Below, piece by piece: positions 1 to 9,819 of a stretch of 64,000 nt of DNA. The stretch is from positions 1 to 64,000 of the forward strand of contig NZ_JANQIM010000003.1 of assembly GCF_028282165.1 (NCBI RefSeq), in the 5' to 3' direction. The position numbers and the translations under genes are program-made. The DNA is from Winogradskyella sp. Lineage in GTDB: Bacteria; Bacteroidota; Bacteroidia; Flavobacteriales; Flavobacteriaceae. Under the pieces are notes generated by a model, which was not told the origin of the DNA, ran no database searches, and saw nothing but the letters and a program-made list of their open reading frames with translations. Position 1 is the stretch's first letter. The number at the start of each line of letters is the position of its first letter.

Positions 1-1
1 A

Positions 2-1267
2 AGATCGGGGAGCTATGGCCATGACGGCCAGTTTTGGATGGGTGCAGAAGTAGGTTTGGGATTGCAGATGTTTAGCCATCCCGAGGGCTATGTAGAGCGT
101 AACGGCTCGGAATACGATTATGTTTACCAATATAAGGACCACTTGGGTAACATTAGGTTGACCTACATGGATAATAATGGTAGCCTGGATATTATTGAGG
201 AGCATAACTACTATCCCTTTGGCGGGCTTCATAAAGGTTACAACGATGTCGTGTCGGCAAACGTTAATAGTGTTGCGCAGAAATATGGTTTTAATGGACA
301 GCCTTACGAGGAATCTTTGGGGTTAAATGTACAAGAGATGACATTTAGGCATTATGAGCCTAATTTAGGTAGATTTTTTGGTATTGATCCAGCTGCGGAA
401 ATGGCTCATAACTGGACACCTTATCGCTTTGGGTTCAATAACCCTATATTATTTAGTGACCCAACGGGTTTATGGGAAAGGACTGCTGATGGAAGTTGGA
501 CTACTAATGACACTAAGGATATTGAGAGATTTATGAATATGTTGGGATTTGAAGAGTTAAACAATGGAGAGAAAGCTTCAATTGCTCAGATTGACATATT
601 CATTTCTGAAGAATTTAACGGAACTGGCGGAAGGCTAAGTGATGGTAGTATATTGCTAGATGAGGAGACAATAGTCACTGGTAGAAATGGAAATTCTAAT
701 GGTTTTAGCGCTAGGCAAGCAAACAACATTAAAGGTCAAGTAGAGAATTATGGTTCTAATCCTTGGAATGAAAAATCTGCATTCTACTCTGATTTATTTT
801 ATTCATATAAATACTTTAGAGAAAGAAGTTGGCATCAAAATGGAAGTTCGTTTCCTGGTGTGAAATTAGGGTTTTTTGCTGGTAAATATGCTCAAAATCT
901 TTTGTATAATCCAGGTAACTGGTGGTTTTCGACTAAAACGAAAAAGTTCTATGATTGGAAGTTTAATGGAAATGGGTATACGGGAGGACGAGATGGTTAT
1001 ATCGGAAAGTTATCTAAAAAATATAGTAGTATAGCAGGTAATGCAGGTAAATTAGTAGGCGTATATGGTCTTTATAGTACATATGGAGAGTATGCCGAAG
1101 GTAATCTTACAGCCCTTGGTGCCAGCTATATTGGAGGTGTAGATGGTGGAGCTATTGCAAGTAAAAATATTTATGTTGCAGGATGGTCACTGGGTACTGG
1201 AATAGGTAAATCAATAGTTGAAAGCAATTTGTATTTCAATACTTTTCAAAATGCAGCAAATTGGTAA
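2..1267 (+). CDS. Rhs-core C-terminal fragment (module A) with unknown C-terminal toxin-like domain; frame open to window start, 5' truncated
   Basis: Frame 2 is open from base 2 (..RSGSYGHDGQFWMGAEVG). Rhs core motif YQYKDHLGNIRLTYMDNNGSLDIIEEHNYYPFGG, then NWTPYRFGFNNPILFSDPTGLWE boundary. C-terminus is Gly/Ala/hydrophobic-rich (NAGKLVGVYGLYSTYGEYAEGNLTALGASYIGGVDGG). Confidence 0.8.
   Translation, partial: RSGSYGHDGQFWMGAEVGLGLQMFSHPEGYVERNGSEYDYVYQYKDHLGNIRLTYMDNNGSLDIIEEHNYYPFGGLHKGYNDVVSANVNSVAQKYGFNGQPYEESLGLNVQEMTFRHYEPNLGRFFGIDPAAEMAHNWTPYRFGFNNPILFSDPTGLWERTADGSWTTNDTKDIERFMNMLGFEELNNGEKASIAQIDIFISEEFNGTGGRLSDGSILLDEETIVTGRNGNSNGFSARQANNIKGQVENYGSNPWNEKSAFYSDLFYSYKYFRERSWHQNGSSFPGVKLGFFAGKYAQNLLYNPGNWWFSTKTKKFYDWKFNGNGYTGGRDGYIGKLSKKYSSIAGNAGKLVGVYGLYSTYGEYAEGNLTALGASYIGGVDGGAIASKNIYVAGWSLGTGIGKSIVESNLYFNTFQNAANW
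84..282 (+). repeat. Rhs core direct repeat copy A
   Basis: Near-identical by eye to 7757-7957 and strongly similar to 3471-3690 and 5204-5430. Confidence 0.8.
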
Positions 1268-1270
1268 ATT

Positions 1271-1657
1271 ATGATTTATAAAAGATTCTTTTGGTTTTTA
1301 TATTCATATTACAAAAAGGGTAATGTGGATATGTTATTCTCATCAGTATGTGCCATAGTTGGATTACAGGTTTTAAATCTCATATTCATACAAGGTTTTA
1401 TCTTTTTTCATTTAATGAATAGACGAGATTTATCATTTACACCGATTCTTGGAGGAGTTATTATTACACTATTGCTCATAATAAATTATTTGTATTTTAA
1501 ATCTTGTGATATAAAAGCTATAGAAAATGACTATAATGGTTTAAGTAAAGAAGAGAAAAGAGCACATTCTATTTTTTACTTCTTGTATATTGCTATTTCA
1601 ATAATTCTAGCGGTATTAATGGCAGTATCGATAAAAAACAATTTTAAATGGGTATAG
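1271..1657 (+). CDS. Small multi-TM membrane protein, candidate immunity protein for module A
   Basis: Starts 4 nt after module A stop; several hydrophobic stretches (VCAIVGLQVLNLIFIQGFIFFHL, PILGGVIITLLLIINYLYF, IFYFLYIAISIILAVLMAVSI). Confidence 0.65.
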   Translation: MIYKRFFWFLYSYYKKGNVDMLFSSVCAIVGLQVLNLIFIQGFIFFHLMNRRDLSFTPILGGVIITLLLIINYLYFKSCDIKAIENDYNGLSKEEKRAHSIFYFLYIAISIILAVLMAVSIKNNFKWV

Positions 1658-1660
1658 AAG

Positions 1661-1713
1661 GTAGTGTTGTAAAAAAGGGCATGGACTAAAACACTATTTT
1701 AAATAATTGAAAA
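1661..1713 (+). repeat. Intergenic repeat copy R1 (consensus GTARTGTWGTAAAAAAGGNCATGG..TAAA..ATTTTAAAYAATTGAAAA)
   Basis: By-eye similarity to 7405-7457 and 9384-9437. Confidence 0.6.
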
Positions 1714-1776
1714 TCCCGTGGGCTATGAGGAAAAAACGGTGCAGATTATGGTTATGCCTATCAATATAAGGACCAC

Positions 1777-2853
1777 TTGGGTAACGTACGACTTACATAC
1801 GCGGATAGTGATAAAAATGGCTCTATCAATGCTAATACTGAGATAATCTCTGAGAAAAATTATTACCCTTTCGGCCTTTTGCAAAAGGGCTATAACAACA
1901 TAATGAGCGCAAACGCCAACTCTGTAGCCGAAAAGTTTGGCTTTGGGAACAAAGAGTTTAACGATGAACTTGGACTGGATATGTACGATTACGGCGCAAG
2001 AATGTTAGATCCTGCTATAGCAAGATGGTTTAATATAGATGCTAAGGCAGAATTGTATTTTAATTCTACACCTTATAATTACGTTAGAAATTCACCTATC
2101 ATGCGAATAGATCCTAACGGAAACTGGGATATTACTGTACATGTTGCTAAAAATAGAGAAGAAAACGGATATGGTGTAGCCGTAGTTACCAATAGGCATG
2201 GTAAAGAAATTTATAGATTTAAAGTTCGTGTTGAAGGTACTGGAGGTAGAGATAGAATGAAAACCAACGCAGATACCCCTTTAGGCTCTTATGATATTCC
2301 AAATAAAAATATGTGGATAAAAGCTAGCGCTTCTGGCGAAAAAAGAAAATCATATGGACCAAATGATAGGTTAATATTATCCCCGCTTTCAGGTGAAATC
2401 AAGGATAGTGGGAGAACCCTTATAAGAGTTCATGGAGGTAGACAAGAAGTTTATAATAAGGCAACAGGACTTTGGGAAAAAGTAAAGAATCCTAAACTAA
2501 TAAAAACGCACGGCTGTCTAAGATGTTCAGATAATGATGTTTTAACATTAAAAACTTTGGTAGAGCGATTAATGGGAGATGACCCAGATGAATATGGAGG
2601 TGTTTTAAAAGTAATTGATGACTTAGATCAATTTAATTCAAGAGAGAATGAAATACAAGAAATTTTTAAGGGTTTGCTTGCAGACCAATATCCTAATGGT
2701 TTTCCAGTTTTTTCAGAAGCTATGATTTTGTCCGAATTAAGGGCTGAAGCAGAAAACATTTATGCTAAAAGGATGGAAATACTTCAGAAACATTTAGATA
2801 ATGCTATTGAAGCATATGAAGATTATTTGAATGGTAAATCACAAAACTACTAA
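1777..2853 (+). CDS. Rhs-core fragment (module B) with L,D-transpeptidase (YkuD)-like C-terminal domain
   Basis: Core GNVRLTYADSDKNGSINANTEIISEKNYYPFGLLQKGYNN; C-terminal TPLGSYDIPNK...LILSPLSG...TLIRVHGGR...LIKTHGCLRCSDNDV matches the YkuD H...[ST]HGChR catalytic pattern. ORF starts with TTG. Confidence 0.75.
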   Translation: MGNVRLTYADSDKNGSINANTEIISEKNYYPFGLLQKGYNNIMSANANSVAEKFGFGNKEFNDELGLDMYDYGARMLDPAIARWFNIDAKAELYFNSTPYNYVRNSPIMRIDPNGNWDITVHVAKNREENGYGVAVVTNRHGKEIYRFKVRVEGTGGRDRMKTNADTPLGSYDIPNKNMWIKASASGEKRKSYGPNDRLILSPLSGEIKDSGRTLIRVHGGRQEVYNKATGLWEKVKNPKLIKTHGCLRCSDNDVLTLKTLVERLMGDDPDEYGGVLKVIDDLDQFNSRENEIQEIFKGLLADQYPNGFPVFSEAMILSELRAEAENIYAKRMEILQKHLDNAIEAYEDYLNGKSQNY

Positions 2854-2863
2854 TAAATTAAAA

Positions 2864-3424
2864 ATGAAAATAATTTTAATAATATTTATGCTAATCAATA
2901 CTTTTTCATGTATTGAGAAAGAAAAGAATGTCAAGTCTTCTGAAGACCAATATCAATGTAAAGTAGACATCGAACAAATTACTAATCAAGAATATTTAAG
3001 GAAGAAGTTAGTTGATTTTAATTCAGAAGAATCAGATTGTTTAGAAGCTCTATTTTCTTATAGTAAAGTTGCATTTAATGAAAAGGGGGAAAAGACACAA
3101 AACAATTATCTAAAAGCTGTAGAATTTATTTATAATAATTCGAATAGCTTATCATCTACTTTGATTCAAGGTTCAGTATTTAATGATATATTTTATGATA
3201 ATATATATATTGTTACTAAATATTTATTTAATAATAAGGGAAGTTCTTTAGGTAAAGCTTTGCAACTAGGTATAGCATTGGATTTTGTTGTCTTTGAAGG
3301 AAAAGAAAGAGAGGAAAAATATAATGCATTGTATAAAAAGGTTACCAATGAAGTGAAAGATGAAAACCAAAGAAATTATATAGTTAAACTCTTAGATAGT
3401 ATAGATAGAACTTTGTACGATTAA
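2864..3424 (+). CDS. Lipoprotein, candidate immunity protein for module B
   Basis: Likely start at 2864: MKIILIIFMLINTFSC, a lipoprotein signal peptide with lipobox Cys; starts 10 nt after module B stop. The ORF track begins upstream at 2831. Confidence 0.65.
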   Translation: MKIILIIFMLINTFSCIEKEKNVKSSEDQYQCKVDIEQITNQEYLRKKLVDFNSEESDCLEALFSYSKVAFNEKGEKTQNNYLKAVEFIYNNSNSLSSTLIQGSVFNDIFYDNIYIVTKYLFNNKGSSLGKALQLGIALDFVVFEGKEREEKYNALYKKVTNEVKDENQRNYIVKLLDSIDRTLYD

Positions 3425-3470
3425 AACGCGTAATGAGATAGACCAAGGCCTACAAATACTCTCCCTACCC

Positions 3471-3690
3471 GAGGGCTATGTGCAGCGTAACGGCCCTGGT
3501 AGTTATAACTATGCCTATCAATACAAGGACCACTTGGGGAACATTAGGTTGACCTACATGGACAATAATGGCAGCTTGGATATTATCGAGGAACATAACT
3601 ACTATCCCTTTGGCCTAAAGCATAAAGGGTATAATGACGTGGTGTCTGCTAATGTGAATAGTGTGGCGAATAGGTTCAAATATAATGGAA
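3471..3690 (+). repeat. Rhs core direct repeat copy C
   Basis: Shares tayaaggaccacttggggaacattaggttgacctacatggacaataatggcagcttggatattatcgaggaacataactactatccctttgg with other copies. Confidence 0.8.
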
Positions 3691-4592
3691 AAGAGTTGCA
3701 AGATGAGTTAGGATTAACCCTGTATCATTATGGGGCTCGTTTCTACGACCAGTTTACAGCAAGATTTATAAGTATTGACCCAATGTCAGAAGAGTTCCAT
3801 TTTCAGTCACCTTATGTATATGCTGCAAATAACCCAGTTTACTTTGAAGAGAAAAATGGTGAATCACCTGACCCACCAGAAGTTCTTGCATCTGCTCAAT
3901 CTTTTCTTGGAACAATGTACGAATGGGGTGGTAAAAATCCTGAAGATGATTTAGTGGGAACATATAACGATGCAACTGTCGGTGCAGCAAGTGTTAGCCC
4001 GGAAATACAAGGGCGAGGAACAACTAGAGGTGAATTGCAGCAAACTTCAAAAAATCTTAGAAGTTATTACTATGATGGGAAAGGCTCTACACAAGCAGTT
4101 TATGATAAATTTAATGTATCCAATGGCTCCTCTTTTGGAATTGACTGCTCTGGTTTAGCATCAGAAGCCTTTAATTCTGACACTGATAAATTAATGGGTG
4201 ATTTAAGAGTTGGTACAGCTCATGACCAAAGACAACAATTCGCTGACGCTATGCAAGAAGGAACAGGGTTTTTACATGAAAATGCTAATTTAATTGGGAT
4301 GGGAGACTTAGTGTTTTATGAAAATAGTGGAGGAAGAATTACTCATGTAATGGTAGCTACAGGTAAAGTTCAAAAAGATAAAGATGGGAATGTAACAAGA
4401 TTTCAAATAATACATGCACCTCAAAGTGGAGGAAAAGTTGAATATGCTTGGAGAACATTTAGACAAGGGAGGCACTCAGTTGGTCATACTCATAGAAAAG
4501 GAGAAGAAAATAATACAACTAATGTCTGGACTTGGCTATCAAATTTTCTGAGCAATTTTGAAAATTTCACTGAAAACTATCAAAATGAATAA
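3480..4592 (+). CDS. Rhs-core fragment (module C) with NlpC/P60-like cysteine peptidase C-terminal domain
   Basis: Core YQYKDHLGNIRLTYMDNNGSLDIIEEHNYYPFGLKHKGYND; C-terminal YEWGGKNPEDD...FGIDCSGLASEAF...MGDLVFYENSGGRITHVMVATG...FQIIHAPQSGG, the YxWGG/DCSG/GDLVF/HV/IIHA pattern of NlpC/P60. GTG start in track. Confidence 0.82.
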   Translation: MQRNGPGSYNYAYQYKDHLGNIRLTYMDNNGSLDIIEEHNYYPFGLKHKGYNDVVSANVNSVANRFKYNGKELQDELGLTLYHYGARFYDQFTARFISIDPMSEEFHFQSPYVYAANNPVYFEEKNGESPDPPEVLASAQSFLGTMYEWGGKNPEDDLVGTYNDATVGAASVSPEIQGRGTTRGELQQTSKNLRSYYYDGKGSTQAVYDKFNVSNGSSFGIDCSGLASEAFNSDTDKLMGDLRVGTAHDQRQQFADAMQEGTGFLHENANLIGMGDLVFYENSGGRITHVMVATGKVQKDKDGNVTRFQIIHAPQSGGKVEYAWRTFRQGRHSVGHTHRKGEENNTTNVWTWLSNFLSNFENFTENYQNE

Positions 4593-4595
4593 TTT

Positions 4596-5168
4596 ATGAA
4601 AACAAGAATCTTTATATTTTTATTATTATCCGTTTTTTCATGTAGAAACTTTAATGATAAAAACGATGAAAATAGTGTAACTAATAAATCAGCTATAGAC
4701 GACAAAAAAGAAATTACTAATTGTAGTCGCCACAAAAGTCATTTTGACTCAATACCATATGAGGAGAAGTTAGACTTTAAAGTTTCTTTTGATATTATTA
4801 AATGTCAATTAACGAAAAAAATTAATCTGAATAAGTATAACTATGCGGAATTATTATCAAAATATAACTATAAGGAATATAGTATCTATTTATATAGATT
4901 AAACTGCATAGCAGGTGGAGGGTGCGGAGATTATCTTATGTCAGTTATTAATAGAAGTTTGGAAGTTACAGAATCAAAAATTATAGCAAGTGAAATTTCA
5001 GAGGGAGAGAATAACATTACAGTAACTAATTTTAAATTTAATAAAGGAAAATTTAGTTTTGAAATATCATCCGAGTATTATAGTGAAGAATTAGACGATT
5101 ATGTGGAAAGCTCCAAGTCTGAAAGTTATTTAGTTACTGATTTAGGACAAATACAGACAAGCAACTAA
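4596..5168 (+). CDS. Lipoprotein, candidate immunity protein for module C
   Basis: MKTRIFIFLLLSVFSCRNFNDKND: lipoprotein signal; begins 4 nt after module C stop. Confidence 0.68.
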   Translation: MKTRIFIFLLLSVFSCRNFNDKNDENSVTNKSAIDDKKEITNCSRHKSHFDSIPYEEKLDFKVSFDIIKCQLTKKINLNKYNYAELLSKYNYKEYSIYLYRLNCIAGGGCGDYLMSVINRSLEVTESKIIASEISEGENNITVTNFKFNKGKFSFEISSEYYSEELDDYVESSKSESYLVTDLGQIQTSN

Positions 5169-5203
5169 AGTAGTTTAATTAAGAAGGTAAAGCTAAAAAT
5201 CCC

Positions 5204-5430
5204 AAGGGTAATGTGGAAAAAAATGACTCGGAATACGACTATGTTTACCAATATAAGGACCATTTGGGGAACATTAGGTTGACCTACATGGACAATAATG
5301 GCAGCTTGGATATTATCGAGGAGCATAACTACTATCCCTTTGGGTTAGAGCATAAAGGGTATAATGACATGGTAAGTGCGAATGTGAACTCGGTGGCGAG
5401 CAGGTTTAAGTATAATGACAGAGAGTTTGA
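5204..5430 (+). repeat. Rhs core direct repeat copy D
   Basis: Same core DNA segment as copies A, C and E. Confidence 0.8.
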
Positions 5431-6337
5431 AGAAGCGTTAGGTCTGAATCTTAATGAAATGGACTTTAGGCAGTATGATAATGTATTAGGTAAATTTATG
5501 GCTGTTGACCCATTAGCTGAAAACTACCATAACTGGACACCTTATAGATTTGGGTTTAATAATCCAATTTTTTATTCTGATCCTCTAGGGTTGATTGAAG
5601 AAAGTGTTTTATTGGATGTATTTAATCGAAGTTCTCATGGAACGAAATGGTATAATGATGGATTCTCAGGTTTTTATACTAATGATGGTGGTTACGTTGG
5701 CTACATGAGTAATGACAGATCTTTTAACTCTTCACCTGAAAGTACTACAGTGTTGCCAGAAGTAACAGTGAAAAAAGATGATCCATTAAGTACGCAAGAG
5801 GCAGCTTGGCTAATTGAAATGAACATTTATAAGACTCATTATTATACTTATGAAACTATTGTAGGTCAAAGAAAACCACACAATATATGGGAAAGATGGT
5901 CATTTTCTGATAATTTTGTAGCAAATTTTTCATATAATGTAGCAAGTGATTTATTTCAAGTTGTACAAGTATTTGATTTTGATTTAATACCGAGTAGAAC
6001 AAATCCTTTGACTGGCGGAAAAGCTTTTATTAATATTGATGGCTCTGCTAATTACAAACCTACAGAAGGTGTTGTCAGTACAGCTACCTTCGGGCTACCT
6101 TTTGGGACAGGAAGTAAGGCATATAGTTCAATTGCACCTAAAGGCCTGGGGTATTTGAAAAAATTCAATGCTGCACAATTTTCTAAACTTTTTAAAGGTA
6201 ATCTAAGTCGCCTTAGTCCTAAAAACAGAGGTTTACTTAATCGTGGTTTAAATAAAGGAGTTGATGCATACAATAATCAAATTCCTAATGGGATGATAGT
6301 GTTAAAATCTATTTGGTTAGATAGTGATGAAGATTAA
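5213..6337 (+). CDS. Rhs-core fragment (module D) with unknown C-terminal toxin-like domain
   Basis: Core EKNDSEYDYVYQYKDHLGNIRLTYMDNNGSLDIIEEHNYYPFGLEHKGYND; boundary NWTPYRFGFNNPIFYSDPLGLIEE; linker STTVLPEVTVKK; basic C-terminus (GYLKKFNAAQFSKLFKGNLSRLSPKNRGLLNRGLNKG). GTG start. Confidence 0.78.
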   Translation: MEKNDSEYDYVYQYKDHLGNIRLTYMDNNGSLDIIEEHNYYPFGLEHKGYNDMVSANVNSVASRFKYNDREFEEALGLNLNEMDFRQYDNVLGKFMAVDPLAENYHNWTPYRFGFNNPIFYSDPLGLIEESVLLDVFNRSSHGTKWYNDGFSGFYTNDGGYVGYMSNDRSFNSSPESTTVLPEVTVKKDDPLSTQEAAWLIEMNIYKTHYYTYETIVGQRKPHNIWERWSFSDNFVANFSYNVASDLFQVVQVFDFDLIPSRTNPLTGGKAFINIDGSANYKPTEGVVSTATFGLPFGTGSKAYSSIAPKGLGYLKKFNAAQFSKLFKGNLSRLSPKNRGLLNRGLNKGVDAYNNQIPNGMIVLKSIWLDSDED

Positions 6338-6340
6338 ATT

Positions 6341-6568
6341 ATGGAAGCAATATTTCAAATATTGATTGAGTCAATTTTGGTAAATTTTTTAGGATTGAAT
6401 ACTCGATATTATTTTTTTAAATTGATAGGAATGAAAAAATCAAAAAAAGACCTATCTCTAAAACCCCAAAAGCGAAGTAATAACTTCATTTCTCAATATA
6501 TGCTAAATTTTGCGGTTGGTCTAATAGTTTTTTTAGGATTAGGTTTTGTAATTTCTTTACTTTTCTAA
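6341..6568 (+). CDS. Small membrane protein downstream of module D
   Basis: 75 aa, C-terminal TM-like segment MLNFAVGLIVFLGLGFVISLLF; 4 nt after module D stop. Confidence 0.5.
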   Translation: MEAIFQILIESILVNFLGLNTRYYFFKLIGMKKSKKDLSLKPQKRSNNFISQYMLNFAVGLIVFLGLGFVISLLF

Positions 6569-6586
6569 AAATTAAAAACTCAAAAA

Positions 6587-7394
6587 ATGAAAAAGTATTT
6601 TTTTTATTTTATCGTTCTAGCATTAATAATTACCACTAGTAATGCTCAAGACATGGTTAAAGTAAACTATTATAATGAAGTTTATATCAAAGAAGCTGGA
6701 AACATTTATAATAATTTTAAAGAAGGTCTTTGGGTTTATTTTGGTGAAAATGGTGCATTTGATAGATATTCTTTTTTTTTCAGAAGGAATTGAAACTAAA
6801 AGTGATGACCTTAAAATTATCTATTATGAGAACAATAATCTTAAAGAAATTGGATTACTAAAACATGGTATGAAATCTGGTATATGGTTTAAGTTTAGAC
6901 AAAATGAATCATTAGAATCGATTGAGAATTACGTTGATAATAATTTAAATGGTATTCGTAATGTGTTTTACCCTGACGGTCAGCTATTTATAACTGAATT
7001 TTATATTGAAGGAAAAAGAGATGGCGATTTCAAAGAATATCATTTTGGTGGATCATTGCATACTATTACTAGATTTGAAAAGGATGTATTAAAAGATGGC
7101 TTACAGACTTATTATTTTCCAAACGGAAATAAGAAAATTGTTCAAAATTATTTAAATGGAAAGTTTTATGGTGAATATTTAACTTTTTACCATTCAGGGA
7201 ATATAAAAATTAAAGGACAATATAATTCAAAAGGCCTTAAGGAAGGAATTTGGTATGAGTATTATGAAAATGGAAATATAAAAGAGAAATATTCTGTGAG
7301 AGATGGCTTATGGCATGGGAAATATGAAGTTTTTGACGAAAAAGGAAAAATTATTAAATCAGAAATTTATAATAAAGACAAAAAGATTGGGTAG
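6587..7394 (+). pseudogene. MORN-repeat / YwqK-type antitoxin-like secreted protein interrupted by a frameshift at a T9 run
   Basis: ORF 6587-6793 has a signal peptide (MKKYFFYFIVLALIITTSNAQ) and first repeat (GLWVYFGENGAFDRYSFFF). ORF 6675-7394 continues in another frame (SEGIETKSDD...GIWFKFRQNESL...GIWYEYYENGNIKEKYSVRDGLWHGKYEVFDEKGK). Frames join at T9 (6772-6780). Confidence 0.75.
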
Positions 7395-7404
7395 TGGATA
7401 ACGG

Positions 7405-7457
7405 GTAATGTAGTAAAAAAGGTCATAGATTAAAATATGATTTTAAACAATTGAAAA
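7405..7457 (+). repeat. Intergenic repeat copy R2
   Basis: gtaatgtagtaaaaaaggtcatagattaaaatatgattttaaacaattgaaaa; similar to R1 and R3. Confidence 0.6.
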
Positions 7458-7460
7458 CCA

Positions 7461-8744
7461 ATGGTTAGCGTAAAATCTAATTGTTACGCGGATAACATAT
7501 CCGCGCTATCTGGATATAACCATCTCAATCTACCAACGCTAGTGGAGATCAATGGGCCCTTGTTTACCAGTGACGACGATAACGGTGTTATAGAATATGT
7601 GTACGATGCCACGGGCACAAAACTGGAGAAGAAGGTCTCCGAGTATTATTCCAAGAGCATCCGCAGTGTAGAATGCACCCGGTACGCAGGCCATTTTGTA
7701 TATGTAAAAAGGGGAAACCTTCAGTCGCCCTTTAAACTCTCCTTCTTCAACCAGCCCGAAGGTTATGTAGAGCGTAACGGCTCGGAATACGATTATGTTT
7801 ACCAATATAAGGACCACTTGGGTAACATTAGGTTGACCTATATGGACAATAATGGCAGCTTGGATATTATCGAGGAGCATAACTACTATCCTTTTGGCGG
7901 GCTTCATAAAGGTTACAACGATGTCGTGTCGGCAAACGTTAATAGTGTGGCGCAGAAGTTCAAGTATAATGGCAAGGAGTTAGAAGAATCTTTAGGTTAT
8001 GGAATGTACGAATACGAAGCGAGACATTACGACCCTTGGACAGCAAGGTTCGTAACGATTGACCCATTGGCAGAAGACTATAATTTCCAGTCGACTTATG
8101 CGTATGCAATTAATAATCCAATATTCTTTATAGATAAACTTGGTATGGGGCCATGGATACCAAATGGTGATGGTACTTGGACTGCTGAAGCTGGAGATAG
8201 TGCATCAACCTTATCAAGAGATGCTGGAATTTCTTTTGAGAGAGCTAAAGAAATAATGGCCAGTACACCAAAAGAAAACTCATCTTTAGGAAACATGGGT
8301 ACGTATATCGACACTAAAGATGGTGTGGAAAAATCAGCGGTTGATCCAGGAGATATAGTTGCAATACCCGAGCAAGTAGAGGAACATCAAGAAATCGCAT
8401 CAATAATAGATAATAGTTCTTTTTCTGCTAAGGAAATGACTAAGGATATGGTACAAGCAACCGACAATGATGAGGCTAAAGAAGATATGGTTAATTGGGA
8501 GCCAGAGAAGCCAGATATTAGTTTGAAAGGTGTTGTTAAAGGGATGGGCGGCTCAGGCTTTTCTCCATTTAATTGCCCAATGTGTCCACCATCAAATGCT
8601 GGTCCTTCAGGTATAGGTTATAACACATATAGAATAATTCTCATTGAAACTCACAAAAGAGATCATGTACCGGTTTTAAAAAGAATACAAGATTCGATAA
8701 ATAATGATAAAGCAACCAAAAGGGAAGAAGAAGAAAATGACTAA
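7461..8744 (+). CDS. Rhs-core fragment (module E), longest core, with unknown C-terminal domain preceded by a LysM-like segment
   Basis: SGYNHLNLPTLVEI...VIEYVYDATGTKLEKKVSEYY...YVYQYKDHLGNIRLTYMDNNGSLDIIEEHNYYPFGGLHKGYND; then DGTWTAEAGDSASTLSRDAGISFERAKEIM (LysM-like) and an unknown tail with CPMC. Confidence 0.8.
   Translation: MVSVKSNCYADNISALSGYNHLNLPTLVEINGPLFTSDDDNGVIEYVYDATGTKLEKKVSEYYSKSIRSVECTRYAGHFVYVKRGNLQSPFKLSFFNQPEGYVERNGSEYDYVYQYKDHLGNIRLTYMDNNGSLDIIEEHNYYPFGGLHKGYNDVVSANVNSVAQKFKYNGKELEESLGYGMYEYEARHYDPWTARFVTIDPLAEDYNFQSTYAYAINNPIFFIDKLGMGPWIPNGDGTWTAEAGDSASTLSRDAGISFERAKEIMASTPKENSSLGNMGTYIDTKDGVEKSAVDPGDIVAIPEQVEEHQEIASIIDNSSFSAKEMTKDMVQATDNDEAKEDMVNWEPEKPDISLKGVVKGMGGSGFSPFNCPMCPPSNAGPSGIGYNTYRIILIETHKRDHVPVLKRIQDSINNDKATKREEEEND
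7757..7957 (+). repeat. Rhs core direct repeat copy E
   Basis: Near-identical to copy A (84-282), including GGLHKGYNDVVSANVNSVAQK. Confidence 0.8.
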
Positions 8745-9375
8745 AAAGACAATTTTATACCTTTTAACCTTACTTTTATTCTATATTTTAGAATACGTTT
8801 TGGGCTTTTTTTTAACAAAAGGGTTTACTAACTTATTACTAAAAATAGAACCCAAAAATTATCTTTTAAATTTTAATATAAGTCTTATATTATCTAAGTT
8901 ATTGATATTTTTTTTGGTACTATTTTTAATTTCAAAAATTAAGATTAAGAATTTAATTAGATATTCAAAAATTGACTATAAACTAGTAATCTTTAGTCTT
9001 GTTATAGGTTTAGGTTATTTTATAATAAATAGATATATTTTCGATGCAAATTTCAAGATGAATATTAAACCTGACGCATATAATAGTTCGTTGCTATATT
9101 TAAGTGGTGCAATAGTTATTGGACCTATATATGAAGAGGTTTTATATAGGGGAATTGGTTTTGAATTTTTAAAATCTACTGGCATATCGGATGCAGTAAT
9201 AATAATTTTCACTTCTCTTGTATTTGGCTTGATTCATTTGCCAGATTTAGATGCGGTTTTTGGAACTTTTGCTTTAGGTCTGATTTGCTCAATTTGCTAT
9301 TTAAAGACAAGAAATATCATTTACCCTATTTGTATACATGCATTTTATAACTTTCTTATGTTTAACATAATCTAG
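8737..9375 (+). CDS. CPBP (Abi/CAAX-like) family intramembrane protease-like protein, candidate immunity for module E
   Basis: Likely ATG at 8737 overlapping module E stop by 8 nt. Motifs EEVLYRG, FGLIHLPD, YPICIHAFYNFL and multiple TM segments. ORF track starts upstream at 8704. Confidence 0.82.
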   Translation: MTKKTILYLLTLLLFYILEYVLGFFLTKGFTNLLLKIEPKNYLLNFNISLILSKLLIFFLVLFLISKIKIKNLIRYSKIDYKLVIFSLVIGLGYFIINRYIFDANFKMNIKPDAYNSSLLYLSGAIVIGPIYEEVLYRGIGFEFLKSTGISDAVIIIFTSLVFGLIHLPDLDAVFGTFALGLICSICYLKTRNIIYPICIHAFYNFLMFNII

Positions 9376-9383
9376 GTTGTTAG

Positions 9384-9437
9384 GGTAGTGTTTTAAAATA
9401 GGACACGACACCATATAAGAGCTTAAATAATTGAAAA
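9384..9437 (+). repeat. Intergenic repeat copy R3
   Basis: ggtagtgttttaaaataggacacgacaccatataagagcttaaataattgaaaa; similar to R1/R2. Confidence 0.5.
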
Positions 9438-9571: not shown

Positions 9572-9660
9572 AAGCGTTAGGGATGGCAGCGGCATCCCAA
9601 GACAGCATCGTCTGGGATACAGCGTACAGCCCGACTCTACGAAGTATTTACGTAGTAGGG
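9572..9660. repeat. REP-like palindromic element (three adjacent hairpins)
   Basis: GGGATG-gcagcgg-CATCCC (9580-9598); ATCCCAAGAC-agcatc-GTCTGGGAT (bulged); CTACG-aagtattta-CGTAG (9637-9655). Confidence 0.5.
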
Positions 9661-9673
9661 GAACGCCCAAAAA

Positions 9674-9721
9674 CAAAGGGCTATAACCATCTCAATCTAC
9701 CAACGGTAGTGGAGATCAATA
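9674..9721 (+). pseudogene. Relic of Rhs core (GYNHLNLPTVVEIN)
   Basis: ggctataaccatctcaatctaccaacggtagtggagatcaat nearly matches 7510-7552 inside module E. Confidence 0.7.
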
Positions 9722-9819
9722 GATCCCGACCGCATGGATTTATTCATTAAACGCTATTGTTATAAATTGGAATTCATCCATTCCCTTCATTTAGATGGAA
9801 TCCGTGTAATCTAAGGGTG

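Follow-up and report, generated by a model that had tools for sequence, protein, structure and literature searches.

An NlpC/P60 Rhs tip with a candidate immunity lipoprotein in Winogradskyella, and the location of Rhs immunity proteins in Flavobacteriaceae

We identified in a Winogradskyella genome a displaced Rhs cassette in which a peptidase tip of the NlpC/P60 family, predicted to cut peptidoglycan, is followed by an envelope lipoprotein that probably acts as its immunity protein; we assign this reading a probability of about 0.8. The cassette lies in a window of 64 kb (the whole stretch of DNA analysed here), which forms the start of contig C6 of a draft genome (4.0 Mb, 48 contigs). Its peptidase family, catalytic residues, cassette anatomy, Rhs-fused form and conserved pairing are read from the sequence or from an exact counterpart in another genome. 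We propose that this displaced cassette is silent or in reserve, and that its tip would be delivered into a rival cell after fusion to a full-length Rhs protein. The NlpC/P60 cysteine peptidase would then cut the peptide bonds of peptidoglycan from the periplasmic side, and the lipoprotein, anchored in the envelope of the producer, would bind the toxin there and avert self-killing. The features discussed are:

1777-2853, + strand: Rhs tip of module B with a YkuD L,D-transpeptidase-like domain (PF03734, 23.8 bits; TIGR03696, 47.7 bits)
2864-3424, + strand: module B lipoprotein, immunity candidate (MKIILIIFMLINTFSC), with a lipobox, directly after the tip; 2864 is the best start
3480-4592, + strand: displaced Rhs tip ORF of module C, an Rhs core followed by an NlpC/P60 domain
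3480-3860, + strand: Rhs repeat-associated core fragment, the conserved part of the tip ORF (TIGR03696; DNA identity to neighbouring cores)
3861-3938, + strand: first NlpC/P60 segment (LGTMYEWGGKNP), an N-terminal helix and the Tyr-Gly-Gly strand (alignment with 22 NlpC/P60 domains)
3939-4127, + strand: variable insert of 63 residues (residues 154-216), from the WGG motif to the catalytic Cys (alignment; comparison with locus L276)
4128-4460, + strand: catalytic NlpC/P60 segment (PF00877, 23-sequence alignment, hhalign)
4146-4148, 4344-4346 and 4413-4415, + strand: catalytic codons for Cys223, His289 and His312, matching the invariant C96, H162 and H185 of the tip domain
4596-5168, + strand: candidate cognate immunity lipoprotein, 190 aa, separated from the tip stop by 3 nt, with an orthologue in L276

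The tip C ORF has neither a signal peptide of its own nor an Rhs shell, and contains an Rhs core of about 120 residues (TIGR03696, 58.9 bits, residues 41-127). The PF00877 (NLPC_P60) profile, with a cut-off of 23 bits, matches the whole ORF at 27.6 bits (E 3e-6) and the tip alone at 29.5 bits (E 7.6e-7). These scores are modest; when the tip, as a single sequence, was compared by hhalign with 18 ordinary Bacteroidota NlpC/P60 domains, the probability was 96%. The initial annotation had assigned the tip to this family from a handful of short motifs, all of which are present in the ORF, and the assignment stands. The motifs follow the order YxWGG, DCSG, GDLVF, as in cell-wall enzymes. When the tip was aligned with 22 ordinary NlpC/P60 domains (23 sequences), it kept the invariant residues Y20, G23, G24, D95, C96, S97, G98, G148-D149-L150, H162-V163 and H185 (tip-domain numbering). 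Retention of C96, H162 and H185 identifies Cys223, His289 and His312 of the tip ORF as the catalytic set.

The domain is not canonical, in that it departs from the compact, contiguous layout of about 105 residues that is usual for NlpC/P60 domains, if not strictly defining. An insert of 63 residues, present in none of the 22 comparison domains, lies between WGGKNP and FGIDCSG, and because it splits WGGKNP from DCSG the PF00877 match begins only at profile position 12. A long loop before His312 (VQKDKDGNVTRFQ) is, according to the alignment, likewise absent from ordinary peptidoglycan hydrolases. An AlphaFold model built with the 23-sequence alignment reached a mean pLDDT of 59.5 and a pTM of 0.52, with values of 70-90 confined to the core and low confidence in the insert; prediction from the sequence without an alignment gave a pLDDT of 35.5. 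The helix-strand order of the model fits a papain-like fold, with Foldseek E values not below 0.05: this middling model returned no Foldseek matches at E 0.001. Phage and bacterial cell-wall hydrolases ranked among the highest by probability, the best of them being PlyPy (0.92) and an NlpC/P60 enzyme from Thermus (0.75), at E 0.09-0.15. A flavodoxin, the top match in a sequence search of the PDB, was judged a chance hit; sensible alignment was limited to 6b8c, an NLP/P60 chain, at its WGG stretch.

The product of the gene that follows the tip opens with MKTRIFIFLLLSVFSC-RNFN..., a lipoprotein signal with the lipobox VFSC and Cys16 (by a home-made rule, not SignalP), as the initial annotation had proposed. 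Behind the lipobox cysteine, a variable linker (residues 17-45) leads to a conserved domain (46-190) in which other cysteines are also conserved; these would fit an oxidizing compartment. Profile searches matched this protein to no known family, including any known immunity family, and family-level sequence matches were all weak (E about 1e-3), some of them interrupted by stops. Judging from the sequence, the lipoprotein very probably protects against tip C. A surface-export (LES) signal was considered as a mark of immunity lipoproteins and rejected; lipoprotein C reads CRNFND from the lipobox cysteine, and acidic residues at positions +2 to +7 showed no difference between lipoproteins of the immunity set and the remainder (p 0.80).

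When only the catalytic segment served as query, 11.3 million genome contigs yielded one relative of tip C, in the metagenome-assembled genome of Winogradskyella sp. DT_120 (locus L276). There an open Rhs frame, at least 1488 codons long, ends in the tip, which is fused to it in frame, so elsewhere this tip is used by a long Rhs protein. An orthologous lipoprotein begins 3 nt after the tip stop; it is 62% identical overall to lipoprotein C and has its own lipobox IYSC and signal MKTRIFILMLVCIYSC (by the same home-made rule), with the lipobox cysteine and four other cysteines common to both proteins. The recurrence of the same tip with an orthologous lipoprotein indicates that the cassette travels as a pair, a conservation that rests on two sequences with one close relative found. 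An earlier scan of genome contigs, for which the query was not the catalytic segment alone, found no relative of tip C; plasmid and phage collections contained no relatives of the tip domain, a scan of viral contigs was empty, and searches of whole genomes (300 from the family, 60 from the genus and 396 from the phylum) yielded nothing beyond chance matches and ordinary NlpC/P60 enzymes.

Comparison of the two loci shows that the cassette does not change evenly. Protein identity is 86% in the catalytic segment, 81% in the N-terminal segment and 74% in the C-tail of the tip, and 36% in the insert, which also contains a 2-residue indel; the lipoprotein is 69% identical in its domain and 28% in its linker. 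The catalytic part (dN 0.07 vs dS 1.27) and the lipoprotein domain (dN 0.19 vs dS 1.91) retain far more synonymous than nonsynonymous change. For the insert, dN is 0.67 and dS 1.85, and its change at the protein level is about nine times faster than that of the catalytic part. Given that this dN/dS is below 1, we claim looser constraint or turnover and not positive selection. One guess is that the insert is a specificity or immunity-contact part, a lid or a binding surface.

The cassette is one of five consecutive modules in bases 1-9400 of the window, each composed of a short Rhs-core ORF without a signal peptide and then a small gene. Adjacent module cores share 73-95% DNA identity over their alignable parts and the tips are dissimilar; the core of the tip C ORF is 82-86% identical to those of modules A and D over about 200 bp and 75% identical to that of module E over 393 bp. 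G+C content falls from about 0.40 in the cores to 0.37 in tip C and 0.27 in lipoprotein C. Contig C6 begins within an Rhs core, and C46, C24, C39 and C7 likewise terminate in Rhs cores. With five contigs broken in this way, the full-length Rhs gene of the array was probably lost in an assembly gap, and the draft assembly seems to be without full-length Rhs genes 5' of its tip arrays, these having apparently been lost. A single-contig assembly (G145) shows the expected layout at locus L146, where several tip/immunity modules come after a full-length, 1419-codon Rhs gene. The movement of reserve toxin cassettes onto a long gene through recombination is established for Rhs and CDI systems, and the array in the window may similarly hold reserve cassettes transferable to a long Rhs gene.

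Other parts of the array were also annotated. In module A (2-1657) a hydrophobic, Gly-rich tip adjoins a multi-pass membrane protein, a pairing that recurs at locus L234 (tips T002 and T104); as a toxin the tip could form pores or act on membranes. In module E (7461-9375) the gene after the Rhs tip, the putative immunity gene, encodes a CPBP/Rce1-like (PF02517) membrane protease. Between these, a MORN-repeat gene (6587-7394) is present as two overlapping ORFs, apparently frameshifted near a T run at about 6770, and is likely an additional, now broken, immunity gene belonging to module D. A short in-frame Rhs remnant at 9583-9750 (GYNHLNLPTVVEINRSR) marks the array's downstream edge.

With respect to delivery, the genome encodes the T9SS protein SprA, and a full-length Rhs ORF on contig C10 opens with a Sec-like signal. 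The T6SS sheath protein VipB (PF05943) was not found in the draft genome by a search with a positive E. coli control, one that could miss a divergent Bacteroidota T6SS. Together these observations suggest a Sec/T9SS route, which in this draft assembly appears more likely than delivery by a T6SS.

The initial annotation had also pointed to two successive modules that each join a cell-wall toxin to a lipoprotein, and had suggested from them that the location of the immunity protein tracks the target of the toxin. The module next to that of tip C indeed pairs a lipoprotein with a YkuD domain that has the HG...THGC motif and scores only just over its cut-off (23.8 vs 23.4 bits). The wider suggestion was borne out in a survey of 146 tip/next-gene pairs, drawn from the genome of the window, 10 further species in its genus and 39 further genomes from the family. 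When location classes were assigned by a simple home-made signal rule with one start-codon correction, 56 of the 146 next genes encoded lipoproteins, 26 had several or internal membrane segments, 19 had a signal peptide or one N-terminal segment, and 45 looked cytosolic. Lipoproteins make up 14% of the other ORFs in the same loci, so that the position after the tip is enriched nearly fourfold (odds ratio 3.75, p 1e-9).

Most of the 146 tips are without a known family. Where Pfam families were matched, tips adjoining lipoproteins belonged to NlpC/P60, YkuD, M23, Lipase_3, Toxin-JAB1 and Peptidase_M91 (nine times), with no nuclease, NADase or ADP-ribosyltransferase match among them. Those adjoining cytosolic proteins included HNH (3), Tox-REase-9 (2), TNT, AHH, a Scabin/pertussis-like ADP-ribosyltransferase, a CDI restriction-like toxin, CdiA_C and one M91 (L100). 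The neighbour of this last tip, read from an internal ATG (MKKIIYSLLLLQIAFFGC), is also a lipoprotein, which brings M91 tips with lipoproteins to 10/10, some of the M91 matches scoring below Pfam's own cut-off; this suggests an envelope and not a cytoplasmic site of action for these zincins. Examples of such M91-type (HExxH) Rhs tips with lipoproteins are found at L091, L154, L177, L161, L219 and L100, and Rhs tips with Lipase_3 and Peptidase_M23 domains, both adjoining lipoproteins, at L147:10329-11072 and L190:3852-4634.

For the four envelope-type classes with a target clear beforehand (NlpC/P60, YkuD, M23 and Lipase_3), the neighbour was a lipoprotein in 4/4 cases, vs 0/10 for tips with nuclease, NADase or ADP-ribosyltransferase domains (Fisher p 0.001). 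The latter count disfavours the idea of lipoprotein immunity as a general surface gate that operates regardless of toxin type. Within tip families, 84 of 99 pairs agreed on having a lipoprotein neighbour or not, vs 52 in shuffles, and among pairs with no detectable relationship between their immunity proteins agreement was 72/85 vs 45 (p 0.0004), figures in which pairs from one family are non-independent and distant immunity homology may be missed. That related tips keep lipoprotein neighbours when the lipoproteins themselves show no detectable relationship might reflect repeated replacement of immunity genes from a pool of envelope lipoproteins. We tentatively entertain the broader scheme, on balance somewhat doubtful, that lipid anchoring is the commonest single immunity location in Flavobacteriaceae Rhs systems and is inherited with the toxin family and not with the immunity protein, that immunity is repeatedly replaced from the envelope-lipoprotein pool, and that the insert is the part that the lipoprotein reads.

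Other explanations of the cassette were weighed against a peptidoglycan-cutting tip with an immunity lipoprotein. The tip might be an envelope peptidase with a target other than peptidoglycan, the lipoprotein still being protective in the periplasm. Some NlpC/P60-clade proteins act on substrates other than peptidoglycan, the insert at the active site and the loop before His312 set the tip apart from ordinary peptidoglycan hydrolases, and the zincin toxin VgrG2b is a published envelope peptidase toxin without demonstrated peptidoglycan cutting. Another substrate is nevertheless unlikely: the tip agrees with cell-wall enzymes in motif order and in the Cys-His-His triad, and it scores best with their profile. 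We consider it very unlikely that the lipoprotein is a surface or adhesion protein, or a partner that anchors the toxin, caught between modules: it matches no known immunity family and lipoproteins are common in this group, but in a second genome this tip is again followed by this lipoprotein, the slot after the tip is enriched for lipoproteins, and the kind of neighbour depends on the kind of toxin.

It also seems improbable that the cassette is a dead leftover that now serves no function. Such a reading would account for a tip ORF lacking a signal peptide and Rhs shell and for its broken neighbours, namely the Rhs fragment and the frameshifted-looking MORN ORFs. Both frames of the cassette are intact, however, with the catalytic residues kept; dN is far below dS in the catalytic part and the lipoprotein domain, and the tip is used on the long Rhs ORF of L276.

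Both the toxin class and the location principle have been published (PMC3482391, PMC6899460). Tox-NLPC/P60 was described in RHS proteins of Bacteroidetes with predicted cell-wall degradation and no immunity family assigned (Zhang 2012, PMC3482391); like tip C, it is a cysteine peptidase of the NlpC/P60 clade at the C-terminus of an RHS protein, and the pair in the window differs in its conserved lipoprotein partner and in the 63-residue insert before the catalytic Cys. The same study states the location principle for the immunity of L,D-peptidases, and its sole lipoprotein immunity family is Imm65 (PMC3482391). The Tox-JAB-1/Imm65 pair resembles ours in having an immunity protein with a signal peptide and lipobox, whereas the toxin, of the JAB fold, is unrelated to tip C. 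The envelope peptidase toxin VgrG2b and PA0261 (Tpe-Tpi) offer an experimentally shown case in which immunity reaches the periplasm by various anchors, the Tpi immunity protein of Salmonella arizonae being an outer-membrane lipoprotein (PMC6899460). Tpe-Tpi shares with the cassette an envelope-acting peptidase and a periplasm-exposed immunity protein with conserved cysteines, but is a zinc metallopeptidase delivered by a T6SS, and the genome of the window has no VipB match. LytE-type D,L-endopeptidases with the inhibitor IseA (PDB 8i2e) likewise combine an NlpC/P60 enzyme with a protein inhibitor; they differ as a cell's own wall enzyme and its regulator, with no toxin pair, and the Foldseek fold match is not significant. 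The new findings are that an NlpC/P60 Rhs tip has a conserved lipoprotein partner and carries a variable insert, and how widespread lipoprotein immunity is among Flavobacteriaceae.

An NlpC/P60 Rhs toxin thereby gains a conserved lipoprotein partner where the 2012 catalogue gives no immunity protein, and what began as a hunch from two modules has been counted, with lipoproteins in 56 of 146 neighbouring positions vs one lipoprotein immunity family in the 2012 survey. If the relationship holds, the location of an immunity protein would predict the site of action of Rhs toxins of unknown function, and the M91 zincin tips would be predicted to act in the envelope.
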